64,000 nt of DNA from Ectocarpus siliculosus (taxonomy: Eukaryota > Sar > Phaeophyceae > Ectocarpales > Ectocarpaceae): the NCBI GenBank assembly GCA_000310025.1, contig FN649726.1, positions 826,193-890,192 on the forward strand, written 5' to 3'. The notes beneath the pieces were generated by a model, which saw nothing but the letters and a program-made list of their open reading frames with translations, ran no database searches and was not told where the DNA came from. Position 1 is the stretch's first letter, and each line of letters opens with the position of its first letter. Of the stretch, positions 1-57,800 are shown one piece after another. Both the position numbers and the translations under genes were made by a program.

Positions 1-660
1 CCTGGTACTTCCATGGAAGCCGCATGGAAGTGGTCGTGCGAATCCGCCCCCGTACTTCCACGCTACTTCCATGGAAGTACCTTGCACTTCCATGGAAGTA
101 GCTCGTACTTCCATGGAATCAGCGGTGGTAGCTTCCATGGAAGTCTCGCCTGAAACTTCCACGGAAGTCCGGTCGGACTTCCATGGAAGTTCAATTCCAT
201 GGAAGTCCGACCATCGATCCTTAACGAGAATCTGGCATTAACTTCCACGGAACCACATACATTTACTTCCATGGAAGTAACTTCCATGGAAGTAAAAGGA
301 ACGATTGGGCAGCGACTTCCACGGAACCACACATACTTCCATGGAAGTATTTCCATGGAAGTTACTTCCATGGAAGTAAACGGAACGAGTGGGCAGCGAC
401 TTCCACGGAACCACACATACTTCCATGGAAGTAAACGGAACGATTGGGCAGCGACGTTCATGGAAGATAATCGAGTAACTTCCATGGAAGCGTTCGTCTC
501 GATTCCCACGCACCTTCCATGGAACCTTGTCAACTTCCATGGAAGACATTCCTTGCACTTCCTTGGAAGTCATTGAATTTGCCATAGCTCAACTTCCGTG
601 GAATTCAGCGACTTCCATGGAAGCCATTATTCGAACTTCCGTGGGAGTGTCCAATGGCGA
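1..660. repeat. Array of CCATGG-centred 14-bp palindromes
   Basis: About twenty copies of the dyad ACTTCCATGGAAGT, or one-base variants such as CTTCCACGGAAG, lie in 600 bases. Each copy is its own reverse complement, so both strands read the same. Most spacers are unrelated and of irregular length. An exception is a roughly 55-bp unit (dyad, then ACGGAACGATTGGGCAGCGA, then a CCACGG half-dyad) repeated near 298, 378 and 435. Open frames through the array translate to SMEV, FHGS or LPWK strings and are by-products of the palindrome. No coding content is supported. The array is cut by the left edge. Confidence 0.9.
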
Positions 661-1440
661 GCAAAGGTCGTCTTCCATCAACTTCCATGTGGTATCGATA
701 GTTAATCCGTGGAAGGTGCGTATACTACGCTACCTTCGCCAAAACAACGTAGTAGGTGAAATAGGCCGCATGATGATTGACCTGGAAACAAGTGATAGTG
801 TTGTGTAAGTCACATTGCTTCCGTGGAAGTTCACAAAAGCGTCGGTCCGTGGAAGTCAGCCTGAGCCCCATCACCAAGCCGGCTGGTTGCATGCCGTCGT
901 CGATTATAGTAAGTGAAGTGGGGAACATGGATGGATTACTTTTACGGAAGCTGCAGCGGGCGCCATAGCCACATTGCAACTTTGACGGAAGCTCAAGACT
1001 GACAGACGTGGCTGGCACATTGCTCTGCGGAAGCTCACAAGTGGCTCGTTACAAATGGCGAGTCTACTTCTAGGGAAGCAGTCTGTTCGATACCGAAGCT
1101 GACAATAGAATAGATGTGAAAGTCACACCGGTTCTGCGGAAGCTGGCTGTATACTACCACTTCCTCGCCACAACGTGTAAGTGGGATCTAGGGCATGGTT
1201 TACTTCCACGGAGCTCACGTTATTACTTCCTTGAAAGCTTATATTGCAGCGGTCGTGGAAGTTAGACAATGCAGGTAGCGAAAGTGCGTCTGCTCCTAGG
1301 GAAGCAGGCTGTTTGATGTCATCGTCCAGCCAAACGACGTAGTGCAACAAACTAGTTCCTTCAACGTACGTTAACGGCATGCCGCAGTGGACGCGTAAGC
1401 CGCCGCGTTTTGCAACAGCAGTAATCGAGGTCTGCATGCA
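661..1440. repeat. Decayed flank of the palindrome array
   Basis: Only half-dyads remain here, such as CTTCCGTGGAAG near 820 and single GGAAGCT arms near 950, 985, 1030 and 1137. Two longer degenerate duplications are visible: a block beginning TATACTAC at about 721 and again at about 1150, and a block containing TAGGGAAGCAG at about 1071 and about 1299. This looks like an older, mutated part of the same repeat. No gene is recognisable. Confidence 0.6.
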
Positions 1441-3394
1441 ATTTTTTGCCCTGGTTCACTTTTGCCTCCACAACCCGAGAATCCCACGGCTGTATCTCGG
1501 CCTACAATACTCCAATCAACAAACCAGCACTGGCAGAAGTGCGTGGAAGATGCTGTGACAGCACAACAACTAGGTCGACACTCGTACGACTTCTATGTAC
1601 AGTAGGCGTCTGGTCCATACTGCTGTAGAAACCCAAATATCGAGCCATCTTTTTTTTTTATTCCGATGCCAAAAACAAGAAATGTATCACGTCACGACGA
1701 TCCTGTGAGTATATATATAACACGATAGTTTTGATGGACGGACTCCCATGTAAGTCCGGTAGTACTTCCGTACAAGTGCAGGCGATACTTCTTTCCATGG
1801 AAGCAACCACCGCTGCTTCCATGGGAGCTCAGTCTACCCCCCTTTAAGGTTAACCCATGTGCATGGAAATCGCGTAATCGCGTTGAGCTACGGTGGGGGA
1901 GTCGCACTGCTGTAGCTTCCAGGCGGCTTCCATTAAAGCGTGACAAAATGCCCTGCGCTTCCGAGATGTACTTGCATCGAAAGTAGAAAACGACTGATAC
2001 GGCATGTGGTTGCATATTTTTGCATATTTTGGTTGCATATATATTTGTCTTTGCCACTGCCGAAAAACACCGCTGGATCTTTACGCAGCCCATCTTTCGC
2101 ATTTATTTATCATTTTACAGTGCGAACGACGCAGGACGGGTCGACCTTCATCATTGTCGTTGTTGTTGTGTCTTCGCATTAAAAACCGTTCCGATCTCTC
2201 TCTACCCAGTACCTTCATATGTCCGTACTACTTTTGGATTATTGCCTGTTGGAAATTGTGCGAATCCCTTCATTCCGAGAGAGCCATAATAGGTCGGCAT
2301 CCGGCCTTCTTTTCTTTTTTGGTGTAGACTTTTCTTCTTGTGAAGTTTTGACGTCGCGCTTGCCATCGTCGCTAAGTGTTTGTGTCTTCAAACCTTCTCA
2401 GCCAGCCTTCAAACTTCTAGTTGATAACAAGTCTCCGTGGTAACTTCTCCGTGCATGAGTCACAAGCAAGCACGTAGTTATGACCTGCGCTTTGACTTTC
2501 ACGATGGGTATTCAACCCTAACCCCCCGTCTTGCATTGGTGAGTACCAACGTTATACAAAAGGAGGATCGTTCCACGACGCAAACAAACGTCGACGTCTC
2601 CTTCTTTTTCTCCTTTGCACTCCTTCCTTGCGGCGGTTTTCACACCGACTTCGAACGTGGGGTGCAATTTCCTCTCTTCGTACCTTCCTCGTCGGCCTTC
2701 TCCATCGTCATGTACATAATGTACACCTCGAATTTTCGACTTTTCGATGCAATAGACAAGACTACGGACTGACATGTATGTCCCTTTCACCTCCGACGGG
2801 ACCGCGCGCTCGTCGAGTGTCGAAATTCTTCACCACTTCCTTTCCTCTCCCAACACCGTCCCTTCTTCCCGCCCCTACAAATCCTCTCCCCTTCTTCTTC
2901 TTCTTTCCTTCCTGCCGGACACTCACCACCATCGGTCCTGGATGTTGGCCTCCAGCCCCATTGGGGGGCGGGGGGCCAATCCTTAACCCTAGTCTGTTAT
3001 ATGGGCCTATACTAAGTGAGTCCTCACTTGTATCGTCTCTCTCCTATCCACCAACAAAGATAATGGGAGGGTGCAGGGGAGAACAACTACGACATGGTTC
3101 GTCCGAACTTCGATGTAGCAAAAAGCTGCTGCACTTCTGCTGCGTGGCCCTCCGAATGGTGCTGCATGTTACACGCTCTGTCTCCTGCAGAATGCGAGCT
3201 CCAAATATTTTTCTTCTCTCTTGTGGGACCCCAGAAAAACGAACCAAGACCTCTGAACCTACACGCCCCAAGAGTGCAATAAGCCAAGTACCTACGTAAA
3301 TCTGTAAGACGTCCCGAATTCTTTCGCGCACAGTTTAGTCGCAACGGTATACGTGAAAAAATAATCAAAGACAACGCCAAGTCATCGAAGGTCG
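1441..3394. other. Unassigned non-coding stretch
   Basis: I see no gene. Open frames are short, overlap on both strands and lack recognisable motifs. A small group of decayed CCATGG dyads and half-dyads lies at about 1740-1935. The segment from 2600 to 2960 is pyrimidine-rich. The sequence could be intergenic or a large intron. Confidence 0.5.
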
Positions 3395-3610
3395 GCGTCA
3401 TTTGGGGGGGGGGGCGAGGACATGTACCCATCCATGCAACCCCGGAATTTGCGCCGATGCGTGGGCGAATCGGGGTCGTTTGGGAGAGACATACACATCA
3501 ATGTATCCCCGGCTTGTCCGCCGAGGCATCGTCCCTTCGGTTCCATTTATGGGTAGGGGGGCATATACCCATGTATCCCCGGGTCTACTATCGAGGCGTC
3601 TGTGCGTCGG
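3395..3610. repeat. Imperfect tandem repeat of about 80 bp
   Basis: Three degenerate copies share the core ACCCATGTATCCCCGG, followed after a short spacer by (C)CGAGGC. They begin near 3425, 3500 and 3570. The first is preceded by a G run. Any reading frame through it is short, so I read it as a minisatellite rather than coding sequence. Confidence 0.55.
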
Positions 3611-4865
3611 CGTCCTGTTCTCGCATGGGGTGAATCACCGCTGGCGCTGCTGGCGATGTGGAGCGGTGGAGATCTACTACAGATGGCAGACACCCCGCAC
3701 ATTACAGGGTCAATATCTCAATCTTGGCGTGGATACCCCACGAGCAGCCCCTATAGCCCGTAGTCGCAATGTAACACAATAAGAAAACCAAGGATGTACG
3801 TACAAACGAGTACATTTATTTGCGAGACAAGATCGATCCCTGTTGTGCAGTGCCGAAGGAGGTGGCCAGGAAGGGGAAGTTGGCAAGGCGGGTGGTTCAG
3901 AGTGGAAGCTGGTCAATGACGTGTTCCAACCTAATTTGACGGATACTACTGCTATATCTTGACTATTTTTGTACTCCTACTCTTTTTCAATGTTGGCTCG
4001 TGGGGCTTTGGAACTGAAGTTCTACGAAAAGGTAGATACCGACGCCCGATTGTTTGTTGTCTAAGACAAAACACTTCGTTCCCCCGGGCCCCTTCGAAAC
4101 AATGAAGCAGTCTCCGGCGGCCGAAACAATCCTACACCCGAGGCTGGTGTGGAGCTTTACATAACACTCTTGCCCTTTCATCTGGCCGTTTCGAGACATA
4201 CAACATACTGAGACGCAACGGAGGCCGGCCACAAACCGCAGCTTAGTATGGACTATAAGATGTACCACACACAGCTGTCGCTACAAAACGAGCGACAGCT
4301 AGCTGATAGATGTAACTGTCCTCTCGGACGTGTGCGTCCACAGACAGAAACAGACAGAGTGCAAACACCACGCACCTGATACTACTACACCTACCTGCTG
4401 TGCGCTGGTGTGAGAGCTGCTGTGGTAACGTAAACTTTCACCTGCCGGCTACCCCCCCCCCGTGTCCACATCCCGCTTTCGTGAACGAACCTAGTCTACT
4501 ACACACTGTTGTTGTTCCTATTTATTTTGATCGTTGGTTTCCCAACTCCCACGAAAGAGAAGGATGACACAACAAGTCGGCTCTCGTCACGTAGCGCACC
4601 AATCGTAATCACACCACTTCGAGCGTGTGTGTGCTCCATTGCGATAATATCTCTAGGCGTGACAGCTTTGATAGGCATGGGTGCCGAGTGTGGGAAGACC
4701 TTCGCGACGGCGTGGAATCCAAATAAATCGTATTTTTTTGCCCAGACAATCGGGCTGCATCCCCTGCGAAATAGCCAAACCGTATTTCACATCGCCATGA
4801 TGCTCTCGACGCATACAGAACCAATGCGAGTCTACTCCCGTCACGCCATGACATCTGCGAACGTC
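3611..4865. other. Unassigned non-coding stretch
   Basis: No recognisable gene or repeat was seen. Reading frames are short on both strands. A run of eight or nine C sits at about 4450. Confidence 0.45.
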
Positions 4866-5350
4866 TCCATGGGAGTCGCTAATGAATACTTCCATGGAAG
4901 CTTGGGCCGGACGGCATACTTCCATGGAAGTTTCGCCACGACACGTTTGGACAGCTTCCATGGAAGCAAGATATTTTTACTTCCATGGAAGCTGGGGTCG
5001 GGTGGTGTACTTCCATGGAAGTAGAGCGTTGATGCTTCCATGGAAGCTTGAAATTATGCTTCCATGGAAGCTGTCCGAATATGGCCCACTTCCATGGAAG
5101 CACGTGGAAGTGGGTGTAATCTACTTCCGTGGAAGCCTTCCAAACCACTTCCGTGGAAGCTACCAACTTCCGTGGAAGCTTCAACTTCCATGGAAGTTGT
5201 CGCTGACCCCCCAGCTATGTGAACTTCCACGGAAGTCCACCGCACTTCCATGGAAGTAAGTTTCGAGCTTCCATGGAAGCTAAAATCAATGAGCTTCCAT
5301 GGAAGTATGTACTGCTTCCATGGAAGTAAACATCTACTTCCATGGAAGCT
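4866..5350. repeat. Second array of CCATGG-centred palindromes
   Basis: About nineteen dyads of the form [A/G]CTTCCATGGAAG[C/T] occur, three of them with CCGTGG at the centre (about 5120-5180). Centre-to-centre distances run irregularly from about 18 to 38 bases. The spacers differ from one another while the dyads stay nearly perfect, so this is not an ordinary satellite with a fixed unit. Flanking DNA on the right (5350 onward) drops abruptly to unique sequence. Confidence 0.9.
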
Positions 5351-6494
5351 ACACCCATATGGACAGTAATAATGTAGAGGACTGGTTTGACCTGGCCTCC
5401 TGTAGCCCTACCACCGATACATCTTGCTTCGCTGCCTCGGGTAGGATGCTGAAGACTCGCCTGTACCCATTCTTACCGTTTACAGCCAGAGTCCGCACAT
5501 TCCAGGTTGCTACCCTAAGAAGTCGACCCCGCGGTCCCTCTCGGGCGGTGCGTGCTGCTCTCTTAGCCAGCCTAAACCCAAGTCGGCTAGGTCGCGAGCT
5601 ACCCCGATCTTACGACAGCGGTAGTTCCCGGCCGCCAAACTCAGGATCCCCTTCTGATCAGTGCTAGGGACTGTGTATCCGTCTTTGTTGGGTGGTGTTT
5701 CGAGGTCTAAGTCCACTTACGGACCTCGGCCCACCCCAGCAGGGAGGGGGGCAGGCCGGGATGATTCATTACTATTTACGCTTATTATCTTCCGTGGATG
5801 GATACCGTTCGAACGTTGTTTGTGTTGTATGAAGGAATTTACGCTTTAGAGAAACAGGTACTACGATTAAGCTGCACGTCACTACTACAGTACTGCTACT
5901 GTAAACTCCCACACTGAACTTGCATAGCAGCGTGGACATGAACTACTGTATGTACATCTGACACGCGATGTGGATAGGTGGATGTATGCTCAGCAGCAGC
6001 ACAGCTTGCCAACTTTGCAGTTGACAAGTTGCGTTCGCAAGCTGCGGAACGGCATGTATTCATTCCTTGCTTCTTCATCAGTTCCATCTTCTGTTTTAGA
6101 AGGAAGACATTTGTTTCCTGCGGCTCTCGCACCTTGCCATTCCACGATCACGCAGCAAGCACAACAAGCGCACAGACATAGAGAGCCCTGTACTGCAATA
6201 GTACAGTAGGTAGGAAGGTACGGCTGCTGTGCGATGCTGCGATGCTACTGCCTCATCTTTGGCCGCCTGAATTTGCCGAGAAAATATGCGGACTGATTAT
6301 TTCACGGTTGGAATTTTCCCAAGGCTACCATCGCACGAGCCCGAAGACTTTGGCCAATCAAATGGCCTGCCGCCCTTTCGTCTGATGAATCGGGGATCGA
6401 TCGTTCTAACCTCAAACGCGGGATGGGATACCTCAAGAGAGCTTCGAGCGAGATTCACAGCAGGCGTCCTGCCCGAGTTGGAGGCTCCATCCAT
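5351..6494. other. Unassigned stretch upstream of the modular membrane-protein gene
   Basis: No gene is recognised. If the candidate signal-peptide exon at 6495 is real, this interval would hold its promoter and 5' leader. No confident TATA or initiator element was picked out. Confidence 0.4.
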
Positions 6495-23839: not shown

Positions 23840-24610
23840 TCAAGCCAGCGACGTGCCCAAGACACCTTTGCCGCGGCTCCACCAAGAGGCCAATCAGGCC
23901 GCCAGTCTCAGGCCGCCATCGCCGGCGACGCCGCGGCGACATGGACGCACAGACGGCGACAACAGCAGCGCTGCTCCTCGCAAGAGGACGCCACGCAGCC
24001 GTTCCCCTCGCTCCCAGTCTCCCAAGCGCACAATCTCTCACACTCCAGACAGTTTTCTTAAACCGTCCATGTGACACCCATGGGTCACCCATGGGCCGCC
24101 CATGGGCACCTCATAGGCCGCCCATGAAGTGCCAACAGTGGGCATTTCAACCTAGAACTTCGCCACCGGCATATCAACCTGCAGAACTTAACCACCTGCA
24201 CATCAACCAAGAACTTTGCCACCCAGCGGCATCCTAGCACGTATCGTGTGGGCTTAGGCTTGGGGTTACGGTTAGCGTTAGGGCTATTGGCCGCTATGGT
24301 ACCCGTTGATGAGCAGATATTCTGTTGCTTAGGAGTACACTCGTTCCGGTAGAAAGGCTCTCATTGGCCGCCCGCGGGCTTCCCATGGGAATGTCAACCA
24401 TGGGCAACAAAGTGCTCATGGGCGCGTGGGAGACTGGGAGCGAGGGGGAGACCTCCGCGACATCCTCCCGGGAGGGAAGAGCTGCTGTTGCCGCCGTCTG
24501 TGCGTCGATGTCTCCGCGGCGTCGCCGGCGATTGCGGCCGAAGACTGACGGCCTGGATGGCCTCTTGGCGGAGGGGCGGCGAAGGTGTCCTGAGCACGTC
24601 ACCGTGTGAT
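23840..24610. repeat. Imperfect inverted repeat (foldback) with CCCATGGG dyads in the loop
   Basis: The left arm at about 23850-24040 is the reverse complement of the right arm at about 24425-24605, at roughly 80 percent by eye. Shared landmarks are GGGAGACTGGGAGCGAGGGG, GCCGCGGCGTCGCCGGCGAT (with one mismatch) and GGCCTCTTGG. The loop of nearly 400 bases holds ACCCATGGGT and GGCCCATGGGC-type dyads at 24075-24125 and CCCATGGGAATG at 24385. The arms may be a foldback transposon or two opposed copies of one dispersed repeat. Open frames in the arms are mirror images of each other. Confidence 0.7.
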
Positions 24611-51800: not shown

Positions 51801-54800
51801 GCACTCATGCGCTTCATCACTCCCAACGTTGTCGGGTGGTTCGACTCATTCCATCCGCGCCCTTGTGTATTCCGATCGTTGTCGGGTTTACTCCCAAACT
51901 CATTGCTTTGGGTGTATTCTGAGTGAGGTGCTTCTAGATTGGTACCTGGTATGATAGACATTATATTTTCGAATTCCCACCCCCGTGCATAGGTTCGTAC
52001 TGTGAAAGGCTACCTGCATCTCACTACAATTCCCGCGGCTTGGTGTTGAATCCCCTGCGGCTCCAAACGTTTCGTGTTGACTTACGGAAACAAAATCGAA
52101 ACGTTTCTGCCCTTCCCTGAAACTCCGAGCGCTGTTCCGTTCAAGCATGTTTGCGGTTCAACACTGTTTTCCCATTGTTCTGGGTCGAGCAATGTTTCCA
52201 TCAAAAGCAGTGTCCCCGATTCTGAAGGGGGCGCCAGCGTCCACTAACATTAACATTTCATTCTGGCCTTTACGGAGTTCATAAAGGCAACCAAAGAAAA
52301 CAGCTATGGTCAGCTCCTCATTGGTGGGAATTGATCCGCAGCAATCAAAGATATTTTTTTGTTTCTTTTCTTTACTGTTGCACGTGGGGAGCAGTAAACA
52401 ATGTCGCCCATTCCTCAACACTGGGCTCCAGACTCGGAAACCTGTTGGCATCCTCCACACCGAGGATAGGTAGAAGTCGAAATAGTCGTGTGGAGGTCTG
52501 GCCACGTGATGGCAAAAGGAAGGCGTTTCGTTGAGGCTGAAGAGTTGATCGGCATGCCCAGAGGGGCTGCCTACGCAAGAGAGAACGTGATTACCAGGGT
52601 TCTGAACTGCAGTTCTAGGCAGGATGTTCATGTTCTGGTGGGAGCTGCAACTCCCAAGGATTGCGACGAAAAACCACTAGACAGGGGGTGTGCAGACCTT
52701 CACCCTAACCACAACCCCAACTTATCCGTTTCGATACTGAATCCAATATGATTGTTACTTAGAAAAACCTGCTTACACCACTGTGTGCATACTTAGAAAG
52801 ACCTGCGTAGACTACTGGCCCAGAGATTTTTACGCGAACTACGACGTGAGGTAGGCGTGAAGATCGAGTGAGCAAAGAGTGCGGACATCGTGAAATGGTC
52901 ATGGCGCTGTCGCACTGCAAAGGCCGTGGTGTGGGCTTTATTGGTATGCCGTTTGTTTTGGTTTTCTGGATCCCTTCATGCTCTCTCACTGTTAAAAATA
53001 TGTGTGCCCATTTTCGGGTAGGTACGTAGCCTCTGGCCATGGAAGGTGTCCGCGTCTGCTGGACCACGACGTGCTACCTGAGCAGGGATTGTATTGCGAA
53101 CACAACAACACACATTAACGGTTGTCTTTGGAGAATAAACAGAATGTTTGTGGCTTGGATATGAGTCCGATCTGTGCATCCTCTGTGGGGGATACGCGTA
53201 TTGGAAGTATGGGTGTGAGGGTATGTGTGCGGTTGTGGTCCAAGTGCGGGGCCCCCGGGAGCACGCGGCGGTGTGCTCCCGGCACTTGCCTGAGGGGCTT
53301 GCGTGTCGAATACCAGCTTGCCTGAGGGGCTTGCGTGACGAATATATACAATACATGGTCCTTTTTTATCAGCTGTTCCTGGGAAAACATAGTCCCCAGT
53401 CTCAACACCACAGACCGCTGAGGGCGGCAGTGCACTAACACGATATCGTGGAGCCTAGCTAGGCCAGGTGTTGGTACAGCGATGACGGAAAGAGAGAGAG
53501 AGTGGAAGAAGGAATGAAGAAAGCGGAAGCCGAGAATGCGGAGTTACGGAGGGAACTTGAGGAGGAAAGGGAGCGCAGTTCAGCGGGGGACGCTACTAGA
53601 GATAGGGTGGATGGCGCTGGGTACGCGTCGGGGTATAATAGGGGTGGAGCAGCCGGGGGGGCGGACACCTTTGGAGCCGGTGGAGCGGCTACTTCTTTTC
53701 GAGATGGTCCAGTGCAACAGCAGTACAGGGACCGCAAGCCACCAGTGTACGACGGCAACTTCCCGCTCTTCAAAACGATATTCGAGGTCTTCCTCGCCGG
53801 CGAAGATCTTGGGCACACACTCACTCCGCCGGCGAGTCCTGATCAACGCATCTGGCTCATCCACACCTCCAGGAGCGAGAACATAAGATTCCACAGTGAG
53901 AAGCGTGTGCGTGATCACGAGCGTGCTTTCGATTACTTGAGGCCAGCCACGAAGGGGGCGAAGTTCCAAGGGGGCGAAATTCCAATCGACGATTCTTGCT
54001 GTAGGGAATGTGTCGGGGGCATGGGAGGCTGCCCAGGAGTTTTGTCTTCCGATGAGTAGCTCTGAGAAGGAGGCCCTGAAGTTGTCTCTCGCTAACATGA
54101 AGATGCAGCTCGGAGAGGACCCGCAAGACTACTTTCTGAGGTTTAACAAAGTGCTGAATACGCTTCGCGCTGTCAACGGTTATGAAATCCCGGAAAGTGA
54201 GGTCCTTGCGACTTTACGTAGAAGCCTCTCGGCAGACTACGAACAGGTCAAGACCGTGCTCATGCATGATCACACGCTCACACGCAGAAGCTTGGAGATT
54301 CTTGTGCGTAGCCACCACGTTGAGAAAAATCTCGGTGATCGTGCTCAGCGGACGGCCGCGCCGGCTGGCGACCCGCACGCTCTTCGTTTCGGCGGAAATT
54401 CACGGCCCAACGGCAACGGCGGCGGCGGCGGTGGCGGCGGCGGCGGTGGTGGTGGTCCGCAGCGGAGGACCGGTGGGTTTTCCCAAGGCAGACAATAGGG
54501 TAGAGATGGACAGCAGCAGCCGGGGTGGGGAGGGGGAACTCAGGGAGAGTACAACGGGGGATATCGCCCGCAGCTGCAGCAGCCGCAACAGTCATTTAAT
54601 CAGCAGGCGCCGCAGCAGCAGTATCAACGGAGATTCCCTCAGCATTTTCCGCAGCAGTCGTTTCAGCAGCAGCAGCAGCCCCAGCAGCAGCAGCAGCCCC
54701 AGGAGTTCACTCCCGCAATGGCGATGGGGTTCGTTCCGGGTGGTCCCAGGGACCCCGGGCGGAACGCAGCGTGGCCGCAGGAGGCATCCCCCATTCCCCC

Positions 54801-57800
54801 GGGATCACCGATGTGCGCCGTGCCCATGTGTGGTCGCTGCGGTCATGTCGGGCACACGGCCATCATCTGCCAGGCTCCTCCGCGATTTTATGGTAGGTGT
54901 TCTGTTTGTGGTGAATCCGGCCACACGGCACGCAACTGCAAATTTAACACATCCAACAATCTGCAGCAGCCGCCGCGCCAACACGCGGCGGCCAACACGT
55001 CTCAGGCACCCCACCTCAACGCCGTAATGCCCCCACCTTACCAGCCTTTCTCGCAGCAGCCTTTCCCCCAGCACTCCCATCTCAACAGCGCGGAGCCGGG
55101 GTATTCGGCAAGTTGTGTAGACGGGTCGATAGCGCACCATTGGCCCGTGTCGGCGCCTCTTCCGCAGCAGCACCTTGCCGTGGTGCATCAGGATGACTTC
55201 AGCGGAGGTGTGCAGCCATGGCAGGGTTCTGGCGGCAGCGGCTATGGTGGTGTGCCCCAGCAGCAGCAGCCAGAAAAGCAGCTTGGCTCGGTGGGTGGAG
55301 CCGGTAGTGAGGTCCAGTTTTCTGTGGGTGATGGGCAGCAGGAGCCGCAGCAGCAGCTGCAACAGCAGGAGGGCCGCGCGTGGGGGGATGCTTCCGGCGT
55401 GGATACACAGGTCAGTGGCGATGAGGGTGAATGCGTTGATGGAGTAGGGGGGGATGGTCATGCCGGTTCGTACCGCACCGTAGAGCCGGTAGGTCCCCCC
55501 CCCGATCGTAATGCTCTTCACGTTTTCTGCCAACACCGTCACCCTGTAGCGTATCCGCCGGCCCCTGTCCCCACTTTGCTGTCGGCGTCTGGGTGTACCG
55601 ACTGGTGGGTTGGTGATAGTGCCGCGTCTACCCACAGCACTAGCAGCACCGACTTCGTGTCGTCCCCGGTCGCCGCGATGGCCCCGGGCACCTCGACGGA
55701 CGCAGCAGCGGTGGTGGCGGCGTCGGCGGCGGGGGGGGCGGCAGCGGCGGCAGCAGCAGCGTCGTCCCTGGTCGCCGCGATGGCCCCGGGCACCCTGACC
55801 TGCAGCAGCGGCGGAGACGACGGCATCTGCGGTTTCGAGAGGGGCGCGTCGTACCCTTTTGACCCTGGAGGATTTTATACGCTGGAGGTGCGTGTGGATG
55901 GAGAGGAGAAGTATGGTGGAGAGACGGATGACCCGAGCAGCGGCGGCCGCAGCAGCAGCAGCAGCAGCAGCAGCAGCCGCGGCGGCGGCGGTAGCGACAT
56001 CGGTGACAGGGGGAACGGCAGCGGCAGAAGCAGCAGCGGCGTCCCCGGTCGCCGCGTTGGCGTCGGGTGTCCAGACGGCCGCACGGGCGGCGACGAGGGG
56101 TTGGACGAAATCTGGAGTGGAGCCCCGACGCACCCTTTCGACCCCGGGAAGGCTGAGGGAGACGCGAGCAGCAGCAGCAACAGCGGCAGCTGTAGCAACA
56201 GCGGCGAAGACAGTGGCGGCGATGGGGGCGGGGACGAGGGGTTGCATGGAACCTGGAGTGGAGCCCCGACGCTCCCTTTTGATCCCGGAAAGACTGAGGA
56301 GGAAGTGAGCTGCAGCAGCAGCAGCAGCAGCAGCAGCGAGGAAAGCGGCAGTGATGGGAACGGGGGTGAGGGGTTAGATGAAACCTGGAGTGGAGCCCGG
56401 ACGCACCCCTTCGACCCCGGTAAGGCATCTTCGCGTTGCGCGAGGAGACGGGGGGCGGTCCCAGGGTTGGCGTACCCCTTCGATAGGGGCAGGAACGGGA
56501 GCGGCAGCGGCAACGGCGGCAACGGCGGCAGCCGCGACGGGAGTGGCGGCTTCGGCCAGAGCTCCGGCGGCGACACCGGCGGCAGCAGGAGCAGCGACGG
56601 GAGTGGTGGCTTCGGCCAGAGCTCCGACCGCAGCAGAAGACGGCAGCGGCGGTTTTGGCCAGAGCCCCGTCGGCGGCAGCGGCGACAACGGCGGCGGTGG
56701 TAGAGGCGGCAGCATCGACGTTACCGGCAGCCGTGTTGGCGCTGGAACTCATGACGGTCGTGGCGGCGGGGGAACGGCAGCGGCGGCGATGGCAGCGGCG
56801 GCAGCAGCGGTGGCGCCCTCGAGTCGACCGGGAACGGGGAGGACACGGTGACAGCGACGATCTCACCTTGTTACAGCCAAGTGGGAAATCATGTGAAACG
56901 TTTACGACTTTGTTCGGTTTTGCGAGCAGCCATGAACGTTTTAGCTTCGCCATTTGGCTTCATATTATTATTATTATTTTTTTCTATTTTTCCCTTGCAA
57001 GCACGCCGTGCACTTTGATGCAGAAAACACGTGTGCCACGGCGTGTGCGTAATATTTTTTTTTCTGTACTTGGTTTCACGATAATAAATGTTCGCTGCGA
57101 CAAGATAAGCATTGCCACAACCTGTGGAATAGGAAGCAGCAGGTGGGGTTTTATTTATTTTTTTTTCCTTGGTTCTTCGTATGTTTTCAGTCGCGTTTTA
57201 CCTTGCAGCTGAATGCTTCATATTATTTCCCTATTCTTTGGCGCTTAGGGTGTTTCGATACTTTTTTTTTTTATGTTAGGTCCTGAGTTAAGCGGTCGCT
57301 CTCTGCGGTGTGTTTTTGGCCGCGCGCAAGAAATGGGATGATAGCGGGTTGCTTGACGTGCGTGAAGGCATGTGGCTCAGGGAGCAGGGTAGCTTTTGGA
57401 GTTCCAGTTGCAAATACAGTTTTCATACGGTACGAATTTTTCCGGAGTTTGATGCCATGAGTGTAACGTGTTTTCATGTTTTTGGTTTGTATCGCATGTT
57501 TTGCTGCTCTTGCATCGAAAATCATGGGGGGGGATGTCATGTATGACCATGATTCTAGGGGGCGTGAGCAGCAATCGAATTGGTTCGTTTTCTGGCCTTG
57601 TCTATTTGTGTTTTAGGTGAACGGCAAAGCAAGGGGGACTGTTGACATCGAGATATTAGCTCGGGGTGAAGTTTGGGAGCTGACAGCAGGGGGGCTGTTT
57701 GCGTGGATGCTTGCTTATATTTTCTATCGTTTCTTGGACAACAGCGACGGTACCGATTATCGGGTGCGCGCTGTTTAGGATTTGGTCCTCGGACACTGTA

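Follow-up and report, generated by a model that had tools for sequence, protein, structure and literature searches.

The Ac transposase binds to subterminal AAACGG repeats (PMC3260210), and the BED domains of Hermes bind to AAG(T/C), with two domains cooperating on a quasi-palindrome, for which the precise distance from the terminus is important (PMC10368747). One end of the soybean CACTA element Tgmt* has 24 subterminal repeats, which cover 732 bp (PMC2613891). For Ectocarpus, a 2025 survey reported 51 families of unassigned DNA transposons, and a search for the terms 'subterminal' and 'palindrom' in the main text of that survey gave no match (PMC12477816). Here we analysed a 64,000-nucleotide stretch of the Ectocarpus siliculosus genome (assembly GCA_000310025.1, contig FN649726.1, positions 826,193 to 890,192 of the forward strand), hereafter the window, in which an initial annotation had pointed to two dense arrays of a palindrome, or dyad. 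These arrays are probably the subterminal zones of a DNA-transposon family with imperfect terminal inverted repeats of about 33 bp and 8-bp target-site duplications, and the dyads would be bound by the transposase that mobilises the family. We observed the termini, target-site duplications in part of the copies, first dyads at a nearly constant distance from the end, and the recurrence of the arrays in elements of 0.35 to 24.8 kb.

The exact sequence CTTCCATGGAAG was found 27 times in the window, 13 times in array 1 and 14 times in array 2, while the expectation from shuffling was 0.00. At up to 2 mismatches in 12 positions the window contained 53 dyads, of which 25 were located at 8-636, 7 at 818-1927, 18 at 4889-5337 and 3 elsewhere; the initial estimate of about forty dyads in the two arrays (25 + 18) was right. 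Each dyad consists of two GGAAGY half-sites facing apart around a 2-bp AT centre. The unit had been described as a perfect palindrome of 14 bp, and with 27 exact copies the dyad is real, but the conserved palindrome is only 12 bp long. The base flanking it is mostly a purine on the left and a pyrimidine on the right, and left and right flanking bases were complementary about as often as chance predicts, both in the window (22 of 40 dyads, 19.3 expected) and over all loci (336 of 817 dyads, 361.9 expected). The two central bases were the positions most often changed. The suggestion that variants with CCGTGG or CCACGG centres arose by CpG-type decay has the wrong direction, because a change from CCATGG to either of them makes a CpG. 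In array 2 the dyads follow each other at start-to-start distances of 18-39 bp. The spacers, which had been called unrelated, do differ mostly within one array, save for partial internal repeats, but they are common to different genomic copies of the arrays. The genome-wide count that the initial annotation had called for gave 272 occurrences of the 14-letter form ACTTCCATGGAAGT in the 189-Mb genome and none of its reversed-letter control.

Copy-to-copy similarity outside array 2 stops at about position 5384, at the start of CAGTCCTCTACATTA(TTA)CTGTCCATATG on the minus strand. Eight loci, the window included, meet different flanks at this type-1 terminus, other copies terminate in GGGTAATATACATTATTGTCCATATGG, and in many copies unrelated flanks meet identical terminal bases. 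The terminal inverted repeats are about 33 bp long and imperfect with sharp boundaries, and each element has two different terminal 8-mers, the commonest being CGATCTCC, GGGTAACC, CAGTCCTC and GGGTAATA. Target-site duplications were sought in 18 elements with both ends, with 306 mismatched end pairs serving as the null. With canonical termini, the flanking 8-mers were identical (8/8) in 4 of the 18 elements and matched at 7/8 or better in 5, versus none of the 306 mismatched pairs at either threshold. When boundaries were allowed to shift by up to 4 bp, identity was found in 8/18 versus 1/306 and a match of at least 7/8 in 11/18 versus 12/306. The exact duplications were those of L008 (ACACAGCA, 6.8 kb), L028 (CCTTGGCG, 0.94 kb), L036 (GACCCGGT, 1.0 kb) and the 24,777-bp element on contig C12 (GACCAAAT). 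Terminal inverted repeats and a duplication of fixed length (8 bp) are features of a Class II DNA transposon or miniature inverted-repeat transposable element.

The distance from the terminus to the dyads was nearly constant. Ends were retained if their terminal motif had no more than 3 mismatches, the first dyad came after 22-42 bp and at least 3 dyads were present, and 55 ends passed. The first dyad started after 33 bp in 51 of these, over four terminal types, and the second followed 22 bp after the first in 46 of the 55. The window copy is not among the 55 ends since it fails the motif filter.

Read from its sequence, the window copy accounts for both arrays: they are the subterminal zones of one DNA transposon of about 5.4 kb plus a left terminus, which is hidden because a gap of 5,864 N ends directly before position 1. 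Array 1 (1-660, the 25 dyads counted above) belongs by homology to a type-2 end (GGGTAATATACATTATTGTCCATATGG...) and contains an 84-bp direct repeat (264-431, plus strand) in which dyads and spacers were duplicated together, the two copies being 95% identical. Array 2 (4866-5348) holds 18 dyads, 14 of them exact, and is followed by the type-1 terminal repeat CAGTCCTCTACATTATTACTGTCCATATGGGTGTAG (5349-5384, minus strand; terminus at 5384), which at 36 bp exceeds that of other copies by 3 bp. The interior at 660-2002 has 7 decayed dyads (up to 2 mismatches) and stretches 91-98% identical to sequences on C117, C94 and C12, and that at 2000-4866 is 97% identical to C12:1739424-1742248. Two parts of a repeat, here called X, lie in the interior. 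The part at 2017-2993 was found at 82-91% identity in at least 38 other places, with 40 of 2123 candidates scored, and the part at 1415-1726 is inverted relative to it in other copies, for example L006. On C29 and C479, two same-direction copies of repeat X were found about 1.7 kb apart.

The same kinds of end bound the elements of 0.35 to 24.8 kb elsewhere in the genome, and the copies are dispersed over many contigs. In larger copies the dyad is present about 18-27 times per end, an example being L002 with 27 dyads in roughly 700 bp. The elements of a second subfamily measure about 1 kb; they pair a CGATCTCC-CACACTATTTGACAAATG end with a GGGTAACC-YACACTATTTGACAAATG end and carry dyads over most of their length (30 in the consensus). 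This consensus also contains two tracts of TTAGGG repeats, a telomere-type unit. In a 487-bp copy on C11, 16 dyads lie between the two end types of the first subfamily, and the 24,777-bp element (C12:1738668-1763444), with its perfect 8-bp duplication, contains nested Copia-type and other sequence. An apparent 7.9-kb element on C25 was rejected, as its end pair proved to hold a Copia-type insertion inside a small element. A further palindrome, CCCATGGG/GGGTACCC, makes up simple repeats that were seen at L005 and within the giant element (C12:1760481-1761860), and the flanks of L016 and L035 place some dyad elements within or beside CCCATGGG-rich DNA, which perhaps reflects an insertion preference.

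We compared the order of dyad spacings between arrays in 14 pairs. None of 1000 shuffles reached the match of W2-L002, W2-L008b, L002-L020, W1-L008a or W1-L023a, and for W1-L003R, L002-L022 and L002-L023 it was reached by 3-7 of 1000. In the remaining six pairs the agreement was unconvincing (shuffles per 1000: L020-L022, 258; W1-L014, 55; W1-L014r, 110; L022-L023, 67; L002-L014, 28; L002-L014r, 675), and a looser spacing-chain test could not separate the arrays of distant pairs from shuffled ones. The clearest case was that of L002 (C12) and L020 (C9), where the match of 20.5 exceeded all 1000 shuffles (maximum 19.0) while the spacers in the matched register were 0.35 identical, against 0.31 for shuffled letters. 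For L002 the match with L022 (5/1000 shuffles) came with spacers 0.63 identical and that with L023 (7/1000) with spacers 0.57 identical. A fairer contrast was obtained by letting just one sequence of each pair (L002 or W1) define the dyads. In four deep comparisons of this kind, made by global alignment that may pair any dyad with any dyad, the dyads were 0.76, 0.89, 0.93 and 0.84 identical versus 0.56, 0.64, 0.46 and 0.57 for the spacers, and the difference was reached by 0/570, 0/426, 1/487 and 2/429 circular shifts. Among 13 copies of the 1-kb subfamily, dyads were 0.859 and spacers 0.801 identical, with 3/1023 circular shifts giving as large a difference. Dyad positions showed no helical phasing at 10.5 bp (R 0.12, against a null 99% of 0.18). 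Other periods exceeded the null, with R 0.34 at 5 bp (null 99% 0.19) and further excesses at 4.5, 5.25, 5.5, 11 and 12 bp, but these are no more than a lead because several periods stand out and the arrays are related.

The variation within the dyads bears on how they might be recognised. Their centres were AT in 446 cases, AC/GT in 86 and GC in 3, where about 4.0 GC centres are expected if the two sides change independently. Paired central changes were no commoner than single changes predict, and the flanking bases were not paired beyond chance. Half-sites that vary independently favour a dimer touching each half separately, since copying of a hairpin or palindrome would predict paired change. 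The drift of spacers around kept dyads and spacing order, together with the independent half-sites, argues for binding sites of a dimeric protein over a self-mobile palindrome or a satellite, so that this indirect evidence supports the earlier suggestion of an array of sites for a symmetric DNA-binding protein. The dimer is most likely the transposase. Each dyad would be bound by a pair of transposase DNA-binding domains, one per GGAAGY half-site, the transposase would move the family in trans, and having many sites per end would make it likelier that ends are captured and paired, as has been proposed for the subterminal repeats of hAT and CACTA elements.

A number of observations weigh against this interpretation. 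Many of the ends that share the 33-bp distance are copies of one another, the motif-based dyad identities of the spacing-order comparison are biased upwards, and the free pairing of dyads in the global alignments may affect the deep comparisons. In the young type-1 subfamily the contrast was absent (dyads 0.925, spacers 0.940 identical; 487/629 circular shifts as large); this fits copies that decay neutrally once inserted, selection acting only on those still moving, and is also expected of a functionless array. No flank match of 7/8 or better was found, even with shifts, in 7 of the 18 elements, the 487-bp C11 copy among them; for L012, another of the seven, the 8-bp repeat GAGTGAAA appears if one terminus lacks its last 8 bases. 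The window copy's own duplication is hidden by the N gap, and its first dyad lies 36 bp from the terminus, because its terminal repeat has the 3 extra bases, rather than the 33 bp seen in most ends. The binding of the dyads is putative, and host proteins could also be the binders.

The results of the Pfam search for a transposase and of the hAT survey also count against it. No transposase domain was detected by Pfam in the submitted frames, a subset of the frames of the elements, and for that reason we do not claim autonomous status for any copy. Among 20 hAT matches (PF05699) in the genome, 10 loci were examined and none had a dyad array or these termini; one of the 10 neighbourhoods, L054, contained a single dyad with 2 mismatches. 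MULE (PF10551) gave 45 matches, none of them between known paired ends when compared by eye, and KDZ (PF18758) gave no match in this genome and none in the control genomes either, an uninformative result. In the 24,777-bp element one frame corresponds to a Copia-type reverse transcriptase by Pfam, and the element also carries FNIP repeats and frames of no recognised kind. Its 424-codon frame was rejected as the family's own: with 99 of 409 candidates scored, it matched at least 108 places in the genome, and it has no Pfam match, weak similarity to Cre (E 0.03) and, by eye, a likeness to tyrosine recombinases, for which reasons we assign it to a nested element of high copy number. The dyad-pair pattern was found in no stretch of viral_contigs (exact matches only), and for CTTCCATGGAAG, TTCCATGGAA and ACTTCCATGG in print the titles among the matches listed were unrelated. 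The EsV-1-7 domain gave at least 150 genome matches (150 of 880 candidates scored), in keeping with a brown-algal genome, and its proliferation in brown algae has been described (PMC12477816). Elsewhere in the window, a long Q/S/G-rich frame at 54499-56700 has CCHC knuckles by eye and is gag-like, with no Pfam match, and an 11-bp CCATGGGCCAC repeat is located at 24067-24126.

The dyads might instead be bound by a host protein or by an accessory protein borne on the transposon (TNPA-like, ParB-like, or a chromatin or silencing factor), and the arrays would then regulate or mark the element without pairing its ends. We regard this as rather unlikely. Arrays as long as that of L002 would make an unusually large synaptic complex, the subterminal repeats of CACTA elements, up to 24 over 732 bp in Tgmt*, are believed to be served by a separate protein (PMC2613891), and ParB-like and DNA-methyltransferase domains are combined in a protein encoded by a Sola-1 element of Ectocarpus (PMC12477816). 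However, first dyads at a near-fixed distance from the terminus in four end types are as expected for a cutting machine, and the N6/N4 methyltransferase domain PF01555 had no match among the 3 candidates scored in the genome, whereas it was detected in 11 of 14 control genomes. A special form of this idea likens the dyads to parS: a dedicated palindrome-binding protein other than the transposase would load at them or mark them, spread over the transposon or mark it epigenetically, and help to keep very large brown-algal elements silent or together. It seems improbable to us; in it the smallest elements would be almost pure site arrays.

The initial annotation had also considered a tiny mobile palindrome, and arrays built by a palindrome multiplying itself through local duplication or hairpin-primed copying, with no binding role, are in our judgement very improbable. 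Internal duplications do exist (the 84-bp repeat, and the spacing units 15+20+35 and 25+25+30), and dyads and spacers decay alike within young copies. Seven apparently solitary exact 14-mers were fetched from 50 listed of the 272, and all seven were located inside clusters of 4-24 dyads (up to 2 mismatches); moreover, there was no excess of palindrome-keeping paired changes, and between L002 and L020 the spacing order has outlasted the spacer sequence. The dyads are carried along within elements that have terminal inverted repeats and 8-bp duplications. An ordinary satellite or minisatellite, to which we give almost no credence, is refuted as the main account: short stretches of the arrays score as tandem repeats, and dyads plus spacers recur elsewhere as whole units, which the initial annotation had named as the mark of a satellite, but they do so as interspersed transposon copies, many with duplications, dispersed over contigs and bounded by terminal inverted repeats, with spacings and spacers that vary inside an array and with no head-to-tail repetition of one whole unit.

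With the arrays read as transposon ends, a puzzling repeat becomes a mobile element whose ends and duplications are mapped and whose internal layout recurs, belonging to a brown-algal family of cut-and-paste transposons that has been little studied. Its natural variants, in which spacers drifted far while the positions of the sites were kept, offer a ready test of whether spacing matters for transposase assembly.

MULE elements have target-site duplications of 8-10 bp, and membership of this group is possible. Of the superfamilies that the Ectocarpus survey lists (PMC12477816), the 8-bp duplication fits both hAT and, through Zisupton, for which an 8-bp duplication has been reported (PMC12730594), KDZ. 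Ac/Ds and the Hermes/Tol2 elements of the hAT group resemble the family described here in that they duplicate 8 bp of target, have short terminal inverted repeats with numerous short motifs internal to them, and give rise to small non-autonomous derivatives (PMC10368747, PMC3260210, PMC8151067), and the Hermes motif AAG(T/C) is contained in each GGAAGY half-site, a four-letter likeness that is a lead only (PMC10368747). Unlike in hAT elements, the unit here is a 12-bp dyad, present about 18-27 times per end or over most of a 1-kb element, and no hAT transposase is linked to it. The half-sites of Hermes point inwards, whereas those described here point outwards. CACTA/EnSpm elements, which can be longer than 20 kb, share with this family extended arrays near the ends in which motifs lie in direct and inverted orientation (PMC2613891). 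They differ in their 3-bp duplication and CACTA termini, where we found 8 bp and CAGTCC or CGATCTCC versus GGGTAA. The giant KDZ elements of Ectocarpus, of up to 30.3 kb, are comparable in size to the 24.8-kb element and likewise carry nested insertions (PMC12477816); Kyakuja, also of KDZ, differs in its CA..TG terminal motifs and a reported duplication of 7 bp. In piggyBac and piggyBat, palindromic sites near the ends are bound by paired C-terminal domains of a transposase dimer (PMC11707139), but there are at most three such sites per end, and piggyBac targets TTAA (PMC8151067). A perfect 12-bp dyad, its spread over most of some 1-kb elements and a spacing that was kept after the sequence between had faded are unusual features, and the arrays seem to be a new form of something already known, the subterminal arrays of transposons, rather than a new kind of repeat.

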